A DNA stretch of 64,000 bases from Vicinamibacterales bacterium (GTDB lineage Bacteria; Acidobacteriota; Vicinamibacteria; Vicinamibacterales; SCN-69-37). A model generated the notes under the pieces. It did not search any database, had not been told where the DNA came from, and saw nothing but the letters and a program-made list of their open reading frames with translations. The position numbers and the translations under genes were made by a program. Positions within the stretch are counted from its first letter, which is position 1. Each line of letters opens with the position of its first letter. Of the stretch, positions 24,334-28,990 are shown in pieces. The stretch covers positions 62,001 to 126,000 of the forward strand of contig JAURFE010000002.1 in NCBI GenBank assembly GCA_030827135.1, in the 5' to 3' direction.

Positions 24334-24409
24334 GGGCCTGTGGCGCAGCTGGGAGCGCGCCTGAATGGCATTCAGGAGGTCACCGGTTCGATCCCGGTCA
24401 GGTCCACCA
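24334..24409 (+). tRNA. tRNA-Ala (anticodon GGC)
   Basis: 76 nt with encoded CCA. The acceptor stem GGGCCTG/CAGGTCC pairs with one G-U. The anticodon stem CCTGA/TCAGG encloses the loop ATGGCAT with anticodon GGC, reading GCC alanine codons. The T arm ACCGG/CCGGT contains GTTCGAT. No intron. Confidence 0.95.
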
Positions 24410-25377: not shown

Positions 25378-25475
25378 GGAAGCCCCCGGGGCCCGGTGGC
25401 CCTCCCGGTCTTCAAAACCGGTCGCACCCCACCTTTGGTGGGATGGGAGGGTTCGACTCCCTCGGGTTTCCGCCA
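25378..25475 (+). tRNA. selC: tRNA-Sec (anticodon TCA)
   Basis: 98 nt with encoded CCA. The features of selenocysteine tRNA are present: an 8-bp acceptor stem GGAAGCCC/GGGTTTCC, a discriminator G, an anticodon loop CTTCAAA with anticodon TCA reading UGA, a long variable arm (CACCCCACC/GGTGGGATG hairpin) and a T arm with GTTCGACTC. The length is far above that of normal tRNAs. It implies that the genome has selA, selB, selD and at least one selenoprotein; none was identified in this window. Confidence 0.95.
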
Positions 25476-26165: not shown

Positions 26166-26845
26166 CCGGACCGGGCGGGTTTCAGTGCGCCAGTCCCCGC
26201 ATCAAGCTTCAGCACCGTCCCGCCCAGCGCCTCGACAAACGCGTCGTCTTCGCTGAGGGCGATCCAGGCCAGTTTGCGAGCATCGGCGATCGTCACAAGG
26301 CTCTGTCCGAGTTGCGCGGCATCGGCCGGCGTCAGTGGCGCCGTGACGTGTTCCAGCACCAGCAGCTGCGGCGAGACGGCCAGGGCACGCGCCAGGTGCA
26401 GACGCACACGGTCAGCCGGCGACAGCGACTGCACGGACGCCGACAGCCGTTCGCGGCCAAGTCCGACCTCGTCGGCGAGGTCCGCGACGGCCCGGCGAAT
26501 GTCTTCCGGCACGGGATCGATCGAGAGCGTGAACGGCAACGCGAGGTTCGCCTCGAGGGTCATCGTATCGAGCAACACCGCCCGTCCGGTGACCATGCCG
26601 AACAGGTCCAGCGACTCGAGCCACTCGGTGTCGGTGGCGATGTCGCGGGTGTCGCGGCCGGCAACCGTGACCACGCCCTCGTCGGGAAGCGCCGCGCCAG
26701 TCAGAAGCAGCGAGAACATCTCGGCCGCCTGCGCATCGAAGCCCCGCAGCGTGACGCGTTCGCCCGGCGGCAGTTGCCAGGCGTTGACGCGCAGCGGTCG
26801 CAGCGCCCCGTACTGTTTGCGGATCCCCGAGACCTCAATGAGCAT
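26150..26845 (-). CDS. degenerate ABC ATPase-like protein
   Basis: 231 residues with overall ABC ATPase layout but decayed nucleotide-binding motifs. The start MLIEVSGIRKQYGALRPL is ABC-like. The Walker A position reads LRGFDAQAAEMFSLLLTGA, with no GxxGxGK. The signature region is LSPADRVRLHLARALAV, and Walker B is LLVLEHVTAPL instead of LLLLDEPT. A C-terminal IALSEDDAFVEALGG follows. It therefore probably does not hydrolyse ATP. No permease gene is adjacent. It overlaps the PHP gene (11 bp) and the HAD gene (16 bp). Confidence 0.75.
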   Translation of the reverse strand: MLIEVSGIRKQYGALRPLRVNAWQLPPGERVTLRGFDAQAAEMFSLLLTGAALPDEGVVTVAGRDTRDIATDTEWLESLDLFGMVTGRAVLLDTMTLEANLALPFTLSIDPVPEDIRRAVADLADEVGLGRERLSASVQSLSPADRVRLHLARALAVSPQLLVLEHVTAPLTPADAAQLGQSLVTIADARKLAWIALSEDDAFVEALGGTVLKLDAGTGALKPARSGWKIW

Positions 26846-27677
26846 GGATCGTGAGCCACCCCGCACGCGCGGCCAGCCGTGCATAGTCGGCCGCGGGCAG
26901 GTGGATATGGCCAAACGCTTTTTCGCGTGTGCTGCCCACGCCATGAAAGTCCGATCCACCGGTGACCAGCAGCCCGAGCGAGACGGCGATCTGCCGGTAG
27001 CGCGCGGTGTCGATCGGATCGTGATCGGGGTGATACACCTCAATGGCCTGCAACCCGGCATCGGCCAGTCCGGCGATCAGGTGATCGCGCTGTGACTTGC
27101 CGGGATGCGCCAGCGACGCGACGCCGCCCGCGCGGGTGATGAGTGCCACCACATCGGCGGGTGACGGACCGATGCGCTCGACGAACGCGGGCTTGCCCTC
27201 GCCGAGATACCGGTCAAACGCCTCGCGGATGTCGGCGACGTGTCCGGCCTTCACCAGCGCGGCGGCGGCCATCGGCCGGCCCATGGCGCGACCGGCCAGC
27301 CGTCCCGCGTCGGCCATCGCCGCCGTCAGGTTCACGGGCACGCCGAGGTGGGCGAGCCGTGTGCCGATTTCCTCAAGCCGGCGTAGCCGATCCGCGCGCT
27401 GCCGCGCGAGGAACCCCTGCAGTTCGGCCTGCCCGGGATCAAACCCGTACCCGAGCATGTGCACGTCGCGTCCGCCATCCACGGACGTGATTTCGATGCC
27501 CACATGACAAATCAGACCGGCGTCACGGGCAGCCGCGCGGCAGGCGTCCACACCGGCCGTGGTGTCGTGATCGGTCACGGCCATGATGCGGAGGCCCTTC
27601 GCGGCGGCCTGGGCGACCAGTTCTTCCGGCGTGGACCGCCCATCAGAAGCGGTCGTATGCATGTGGAGATCGATCAT
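26835..27677 (-). CDS. PHP-domain phosphoesterase
   Basis: 280 residues of the PHP family, resembling RNase AM/3',5'-nucleoside bisphosphate phosphatases. Metal-binding motifs are present: DLHMHTTASDG, AVTDHDT, GIEI, SLAHPGK and GSDFHG. These coordinate a trinuclear metal centre for phosphomonoester or nucleotide hydrolysis in the cytoplasm. The start overlaps the stop of the Fur-ferritin gene by 4 bp and the end overlaps the ABC-like gene by 11 bp. Confidence 0.9.
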   Translation of the reverse strand: MIDLHMHTTASDGRSTPEELVAQAAAKGLRIMAVTDHDTTAGVDACRAAARDAGLICHVGIEITSVDGGRDVHMLGYGFDPGQAELQGFLARQRADRLRRLEEIGTRLAHLGVPVNLTAAMADAGRLAGRAMGRPMAAAALVKAGHVADIREAFDRYLGEGKPAFVERIGPSPADVVALITRAGGVASLAHPGKSQRDHLIAGLADAGLQAIEVYHPDHDPIDTARYRQIAVSLGLLVTGGSDFHGVGSTREKAFGHIHLPAADYARLAARAGWLTIHAH

Positions 27678-28645
27678 GTGGCGATCAATCGACGACCCTT
27701 GCGGCCCTTCAGGCTGGCTGTCTGACGTTCCACCAGGCTGCGATACTCGCGAATCAGCAGGTCGAGGTGTTCACGCTCCTCGGCGGCAAATTCCAGGAAG
27801 ATCTGCTTGCCTTCGGATTCCTCGAACCGTTCGCCATACCGCTTGAAGAACTTGTGCGAGCCCCGCTCGCAGCGGATCCCGATCAGCAGCGCCTGCCGAT
27901 CATCCACACCCTTGACGAGTTCCTCGGTGCCGGCGGCAAAGATCCCGTTGGCCGCGCCCTTGAAGAACAGGAACGTCGGGTGCGCCTCCAACTCCGGATC
28001 CGCCTTGACCAACTCGCGATACCGCCGCTCCAGGGTCCCGAGATGCTCTTTCTCTTCTTCGGCGAGACGCCGGAAGACCTTCTTGCCTCGCGCGTCCCTG
28101 GTGATGGCCGCGGCCCGTGTGTAGAACTCAAGTCCGCTGCGCTCGGTCGCAATCGCAATCCGCAACGCGTCGCGCGCAAACAGCGCGTCAGTTGGCGCCG
28201 CGATCCGCTCAGGCTGGCGCCCGGCCTGGCAATCCTCACAGGTGCCGTAGATCTGCAGCACACTCTGCCGCGCCGAAAACCGGCGCGCGTCGGCAATCTC
28301 CTCGATCAACGCCTCGATGTCGGAACTCAGAAACTCAAACGACTGGTTGCAGGCCTTGCAGATGAGGTGAAAGTGCCGCGGATGCCGGTACGAATGTTCG
28401 TAGCGGAACCGGCCTTCGCCGAAGTCCACCTTCTGGGCGATCCCGGCGTCCACCATCCACTGGAGCGTGCGATAGATCGTCGCCCGGCTGATCCGCGCGT
28501 CTTCCGCTCGGATCAGTTCCACCAGTTCGTCAGCGGCCAGATGGCCCTCCTGACGCAGGAAGATTTGGACGATGACATCACGTTTGCCGGAGCGGCGGCC
28601 CCCAGCCGGGCGCAGTTGCTCGACAAACTCCTTGGCGGACTGCAT
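27674..28645 (-). CDS. Fur-family regulator fused to a ferritin/rubrerythrin-like diiron domain
   Basis: 323 residues in two parts. Residues 1-145 are a Fur/PerR-type repressor: a winged helix with ISRATIYRTLQWMVDAGI, the HFHLIC metal region and structural zinc cysteines C96/C99 and C136/C139. Residues 150-320 are a four-helix ferritin-like domain with a full diiron ligand set: E168, E198-x-x-H201, E260, and E290-x-x-H293. The normal Fur length is about 145, so the second half is a real C-terminal extension. The fusion suggests a regulator that senses iron or peroxide through an attached diiron site. It sits 15 bp after an A-type Fe-S carrier gene and overlaps the PHP gene by 4 bp. Confidence 0.9.
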   Translation of the reverse strand: MQSAKEFVEQLRPAGGRRSGKRDVIVQIFLRQEGHLAADELVELIRAEDARISRATIYRTLQWMVDAGIAQKVDFGEGRFRYEHSYRHPRHFHLICKACNQSFEFLSSDIEALIEEIADARRFSARQSVLQIYGTCEDCQAGRQPERIAAPTDALFARDALRIAIATERSGLEFYTRAAAITRDARGKKVFRRLAEEEKEHLGTLERRYRELVKADPELEAHPTFLFFKGAANGIFAAGTEELVKGVDDRQALLIGIRCERGSHKFFKRYGERFEESEGKQIFLEFAAEEREHLDLLIREYRSLVERQTASLKGRKGRRLIAT

Positions 28646-28660
28646 GAACGGTCGTCCGGC

Positions 28661-28990
28661 TTACGCGCTGAACGACGAACCGCAGCCGCAGGTGGACTTG
28701 GCGTTCGGGTTCTTGATGGTGAACCCGCCGCCCATGTTGTTGTCCACGAAGTCCACTTCCGCGCCGCTCAGATACCGCAGGCTGATGGGATCCACCAGCA
28801 GTTTGACGCCGTTGACCTCAAACACCTGATCGGACTCGGCATCCCCTTCGCCTTCATCGATCATCAGGCCGTACTGGAATCCCGAGCACCCGCCGCCCTG
28901 CACGAACACCCGCAGGCCCGCGCCCAGACGTCCCTCCTCCACGAGCAGTTCGGAAATGCGCGATGCCGCAGTTTCAGTCACATTAATCAT
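28661..28990 (-). CDS. A-type Fe-S cluster carrier (ErpA/IscA family)
   Basis: 109 residues. The three invariant cysteines are C35 (GGGCSGFQY) and C101/C103 (STCGCGSSF). They hold a [2Fe-2S] or [4Fe-4S] cluster that is passed to apo-enzymes. Both ErpA and IscA share this pattern, so I leave the symbol blank. It is the first gene of a leftward set with the Fur-ferritin regulator next, a sensible iron-related pairing. A perfect TATAAT lies 7 nt before the ATG. Confidence 0.93.
   Translation of the reverse strand: MINVTETAASRISELLVEEGRLGAGLRVFVQGGGCSGFQYGLMIDEGEGDAESDQVFEVNGVKLLVDPISLRYLSGAEVDFVDNNMGGGFTIKNPNAKSTCGCGSSFSA

Follow-up and report, generated by a model that had tools for sequence, protein, structure and literature searches.

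The window, a stretch of 64,000 nucleotides from the genome of a Vicinamibacterales bacterium, contains on its reverse strand a gene encoding a Fur-family repressor whose chain continues into a ferritin-like domain (FLD). The Vicinamibacterales are an order of soil and water bacteria within the Acidobacteriota. The gene, here called fur-FLD, is a single unbroken frame that opens with an ATG at 28645, closes with a stop at 27674 and has no internal stops. The gene, its parts and its neighbors are as follows.

26835..27677, reverse strand: PHP-domain phosphatase-like gene (Pfam PHP; ORF coordinates; synteny in the order)
27674..28645, reverse strand: fur-FLD gene, 323 amino acids (ORF and translation; Pfam FUR and Rubrerythrin; fusion recurring in 69 of 396 phylum genomes)
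28226..28612, reverse strand: Fur half, residues 12-140, winged helix and dimerization domain (Pfam; invariant ligands; Foldseek matches to Fur structures)
28184..28225, reverse strand: variable linker, residues 141-154 (35% mean identity in the order against 75-80% in the flanking domains)
27731..28183, reverse strand: FLD, residues 155-305, with predicted diiron ligands (Pfam; conservation; 1vjx profile match, E 1e-18; four-helix model)
28661..28990, reverse strand: erpA, iron-sulfur cluster insertion protein (NCBIfam PRK13623 ErpA above cut-off)

The erpA gene lies 15 bp upstream of fur-FLD, and the start of the PHP-domain gene overlaps the fur-FLD stop by 4 nt, so the three genes probably form one operon. 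An upstream erpA on the same strand was found at 73 of 73 loci of the order, a few of which represent the same genome reached twice, but not near the 12 divergent fusions examined. Elsewhere in the window, ARAGORN predicted a tRNA-Ala at 24334-24409 and, on the forward strand, a selenocysteine tRNA (anticodon tca) at 25378-25475.

Two domains in one chain

The original prediction described a single chain carrying a Fur-family repressor and a ferritin-like domain, and the unbroken frame, the Pfam matches and the predicted fold all agree with this description. Pfam FUR matches residues 15-133 with an E-value of 9.6e-25 and 87.5 bits, against a curated cut-off of 23.1, and Pfam Rubrerythrin (PF02915) matches above its cut-off with an E-value of 7.8e-12 in two stretches, the better of which spans residues 159-215. 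The AlphaFold2 model (mean pLDDT 84.9, pTM 0.75) comprises a Fur fold and a four-helix bundle. Within the order, mean identity is 80% and 75% in the two parts of the Fur half and 76% in the FLD; the FLD matches the Fur half in conservation, unlike the linker. Production of the FLD as a separate protein from an internal start is unlikely, since a methionine occurs in the linker of just 5 of 65 homologues and the FLD encoded in the window contains none.

The Fur half shows the complete set of metal ligands of its family. Both the regulatory-site residues (H35, E83, H91, H93 and E104) and the zinc-binding Cys4 set (C96, C99, C136 and C139, arranged as two CxxC motifs) are invariant in 66 homologues from the order, apart from one or two gapped rows. 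PerR proteins have Asp at positions 85 and 104, while Fur has Glu at 104, and this residue has been proposed to control whether H2O2 gains access (PMC4866751). In the fusion both positions are Glu (E83 and E104), and Glu was found at 104 in every aligned fusion covering that position. The Fur half is thus Fur-type and not PerR-type: of the earlier Fur/PerR label, the family assignment holds, on Pfam and ligand evidence, while the PerR part does not. The structural neighbors found by Foldseek for one half of the model are Fur-family chains. With Fur (PF01475; Magnetospirillum Fur, 4rb1/4raz; Campylobacter jejuni Fur, 4ets) the fusion shares the winged helix, the zinc Cys4 site, the ligand set with Glu104 and the dimerization domain. 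However, a standard Fur ends after about 140-150 residues, where the fusion continues with a complete ferritin-like domain.

All six predicted diiron ligands named in the original prediction (E168, E198, H201, E260, E290 and H293) are present in the FLD, and they are invariant in 66 close homologues save for one gap at E290/H293. They coincide with conserved columns of stand-alone diiron-type proteins from other phyla, and their spacing is two-fold symmetrical, with 30 residues separating both E168 from E198 and E260 from E290, and with the ExxH motif occurring twice. The FLD profile matches 1vjx (TM1526) end to end with an E-value of 1e-18 and also aligns to 2fzf, with agreement of the ligand columns in both cases. 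In the model, each of the four FLD helices (152-181, 185-215, 249-273 and 278-322) bears its expected ligand or ligands. The closest structural neighbors of the modeled domain were 2oh3 (Z 13.4, 136 residues, 2.7 Å) and rubrerythrin 1b71 (Z 12.6, 133 residues, 2.8 Å), although Z values of 12.6-13.4 are not in themselves proof of kinship for a helical bundle. The Pfam match, the ligands, the model helices and the 1vjx match together place the domain in the ferritin-like superfamily (PF02915), which is characterized by four helices bearing E, ExxH, E and ExxH.

The FLD shares this bundle and ligand pattern with rubrerythrin and COG1633-type proteins (1b71, 1vjx, 2oh3, 2fzf), but differs from them in being fused to a DNA-binding repressor and in lacking a rubredoxin domain: the Cys4 rubredoxin domain of classical rubrerythrin has no match in the fur-FLD chain, and C259 is the only cysteine of the FLD. 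A weak NCBIfam match links the FLD to MbfA, where a ferritin-like domain is likewise an accessory module on an iron-homeostasis protein. MbfA, however, is a membrane transporter that combines its FLD with a VIT1-type iron exporter, whereas the partner here is a transcription factor. No other part of the fur-FLD chain matches MbfA, and Pfam found no transporter domain, VIT1-type or otherwise, in it.

Distribution of the fusion

A profile of the fusion was searched against 396 genomes of the phylum. Both domains were matched in 69 of them (counted by hand), one of which is cut by a contig end. One further genome, G156, is not included in this count; it was considered as a split fusion and rejected, as its Fur half is masked as N. 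Among the 42 genomes sampled from the order, 41 have the fusion, which also occurs in ten families outside the order; four genomes that belong to the class but not to the order carry an unfused Fur. Across two other phyla (198 and 398 genomes, 596 in all), none of the matches listed covered both domains.

By our count, about 56 of 60 genomes of the order encode a Fur frame of sufficient length to be the fusion; in about 35 of the 56, it is the sole Fur-family gene. The genome containing the window has one further Fur-family gene, which is unfused (L002). These data support well the view that the fusion is the regular iron-uptake repressor of the order rather than a one-off. The best tree of Fur halves requires three changes, but the tree is poorly resolved and is also compatible with one change and hence a single origin.

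G212, a complete genome of the order, is an outlier that lacks both the fusion and the operator described below. A contig titled 'Acidimicrobiia bacterium' (L033, VFZF01000002.1) encodes a fusion 96% identical to that of the window, and its taxonomic label looks wrong. The nearest other relatives of the FLD include the C-terminal domains of long proteins of 884 and 1002 amino acids (L108, 2701-5352, and L190), which resemble PRK12775, in which oxidoreductase parts are joined to a ferritin-like domain.

The ligands are also kept in most other families in which the fusion was seen. In the sister genus g48, several fusions retain the FLD although between one and four of its six ligands are gone: L029 and L030 carry E168A/H201Q/E260G, L031 carries E260N, L032 carries E198V/E260N, and the site of L122 is more degraded. 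A related fusion from the same family, L028, keeps all six. The losses in g48 weaken the case for an indispensable metal function of the FLD, and these proteins offer a natural control for the contribution of the diiron site.

A candidate operator at iron-uptake genes

The regions upstream of FeoB genes in the order were inspected, and a palindrome, TGAGA-N4/5-TCTCA, recurs in them. The candidate operator, TGAGAYTNARTCTCA, is a Fur-box-like 7-1-7 palindrome of 15 bp; the ten outer positions of its consensus were set by the pattern used in the search. At feoAB the operator reads TGAGACTGATTCTCA; ATGAGAACTGTCTCAT shows the 14-bp form with its flanking bases. This shorter form characterizes the family to which the window belongs (G000:C11:870135 and 1358273, or L241 and L242; also L222, L224 and L299); it has one base less than in the rest of the order, and its dyad is therefore centered between bases.

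In the genome of the window, the 14-bp form occurs exactly twice, and the reversed control pattern does not occur. One site immediately precedes feoA (PF04023), with feoB next in line, and the other lies about 50 nt upstream of a gene for a TonB-dependent receptor (PF07715). Over 40 genomes of the order, there were 123 operator sites against 22 for the control (summed by hand). Of 33 sites of the 15-bp form that were examined, 20 are located at genes for FTR1 permease, FeoAB, TonB receptors, PepSY_TM proteins or Rrf2 proteins, a proportion that is indicative only because the sites were chosen with a preference for single-Fur genomes and for the 15-bp form; four more lie at genes for a phosphonate-type binding protein or a recurrent protein family, and nine are unexplained. 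The recurrent family comprises proteins of ~430-470 amino acids behind the operator in three genomes (L285, L298 and L306), with no Pfam hit for the one scanned; in L306 its gene is divergent from one resembling a phosphonate-type binding-protein gene. Its members are possibly unrecognized iron-uptake proteins.

A classical box resembling that of E. coli (TGANAATNATTNTCA, up to two mismatches) was also tried. In the genome of the window it gave 19 sites, compared with 3 for the control; most were intragenic and none stood at an iron-uptake gene, and the box was rejected as the operator.

In six genomes (G159, G107, G206, G222, G200 and G209), the operator stands at iron genes and the fusion is the sole Fur, which makes the fusion its likeliest reader. 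Judged from this co-occurrence, the fusion probably controls iron-import genes through the candidate operator. Standard Fur shares with it a 7-1-7 operator near feoAB and other iron-uptake genes; the candidate operator is distinguished by its TGAGA half-sites and, in the family of the window, by being one base shorter.

Role of the ferritin-like domain

The reading that we prefer, with confidence that is about evenly balanced, is that the fusion is the Fur repressor of the order, that its metal-loaded Fur half represses iron import through the candidate operator, and that the attached diiron domain most likely adds a second input. The invariable position of erpA upstream of the fusion in the order and the lack of another PF02915 domain in the genome of the window are in keeping with it. 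A Fur dimer loaded with Fe2+ would bind the palindrome and block uptake genes, namely those for FeoAB, FTR1 permease, TonB-dependent receptors and PepSY transmembrane proteins, as well as, in one genome at least, the gene for an Rrf2-family regulator. From what is known of its family, the FLD would hold two irons in a second, oxygen-reactive center. Its input could be the sufficiency of iron or the redox state that the diiron center assumes after exposure to O2 or H2O2, and, more speculatively, it would report iron load or oxidant to the DNA-binding half. Since the Fur half lacks the peroxide-sensitive Asp, the diiron center would add chemistry that is otherwise missing. Sensing by the FLD, the role suggested in the original prediction, is plausible, fits the strict conservation of its site in the order, and is weakened by g48. 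In its most specific form, which we put forward tentatively and at somewhat less than even confidence, the proposal is a dual-input Fur in which the classical site reads Fe2+ and the redox state of the diiron center, set by iron load or oxidant, alters DNA binding within the same chain. If true, a whole bacterial order would use it as its standard iron switch.

The FLD might instead be a tethered enzyme, a rubrerythrin-like peroxidase or ferroxidase that clears H2O2 or surplus Fe2+ in the vicinity of the repressor; we consider this unlikely, if still a credible alternative. PerR belongs to the same family as the Fur half, and perR and rubrerythrin genes share operons in Desulfovibrio, Geobacter and Desulfuromonas (PMC545781), which suggests that the two functions were already partners and that the fusion may fix an old partnership. 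The fusion, a single chain as opposed to the separate genes of the perR-rbr systems, would then be the 'Rosetta Stone' of those operons. An enzymatic role is also consistent with the complete set of predicted diiron ligands and with the genome of the window, which has no PF02915 domain other than that of the fusion. Furthermore, one divergent fusion (G005) is directly preceded by a ferredoxin-like gene with two CxxCxxC-type clusters (L123, 9505-9753), a possible electron donor for its diiron domain. On the other hand, with no rubredoxin domain and a single FLD cysteine the fusion has no built-in electron donor, its Fur half is not of the PerR type, and a ratio of one FLD per repressor is unfavorable for detoxification.

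Quite unlikely, in our estimate, is a structural or docking module that serves dimerization or contacts with bacterioferritin or another FLD protein, with its metal site unused in signaling. The FLD of MbfA dimerizes in solution, and its interaction with Bfr has been examined (PMC4902296); the persistence of the FLD in g48 in spite of its lost ligands points in the same direction. However, the six ligands do not vary across the order and are retained in most of the other families seen, which a purely structural role would not require.

Doubt may also fall on the reader of the operator. TGAGA-N5-TCTCA could be bound by another iron regulator, such as an Rrf2 (RirA-like) or DtxR/MntR-type protein, with the fusion regulating other genes, a possibility that we rate as distinctly unlikely. 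RirA sites have a layout of the TGA-N9-TCA kind, with which the motif is also compatible, and an Rrf2 gene itself carries a site (L275). Moreover, the operon of the fusion has no operator upstream of erpA, the best candidate being no better than shuffled sequence, and autoregulation was therefore rejected; five of the fusion genomes among the 40 likewise have no exact site. Against this, the 15-bp inverted repeat has the 7-1-7 layout that Magnetospirillum Fur binds at feoAB1 (PMC11353095), and the site is absent from G202 and G212, the two sampled genomes lacking the fusion, whereas 33 of the other 38 genomes carry one.

Finally, a missed stop or misassembly joining two genes has a negligible probability even though the genome of the window is a draft of 80 contigs, since dozens of genomes assembled independently, the single-contig G125 and G205 among them, show the identical architecture, which excludes an assembly join and, with the open frame, disposes of the earlier concern about a stop between the halves.

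We conclude that the fusion is a real and conserved new variant of Fur. Fur ranks among the most thoroughly studied regulators of bacteria and is regarded as a sensor with a single module. No description of a Fur-rubrerythrin fusion was found in full-text searches of open-access papers, and rubrerythrin goes unmentioned in a 2024 review of Fur structures (PMC11353095). Throughout one order, and in parts of ten other families, iron control appears to depend on a Fur with an attached FLD, often the sole Fur-family protein, in which the sensing of iron, the redox chemistry of a diiron site and the binding of DNA are linked within a single chain. As the predicted operator provides an immediate assay and the degraded site of g48 a natural control, the contribution of the diiron domain to Fur function is directly testable. 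Separate Fur and FLD genes adjoin each other in a WOR-1 bacterium (G249:C46, 6467-9743) and in G247:C145, an arrangement from which such a fusion could arise.
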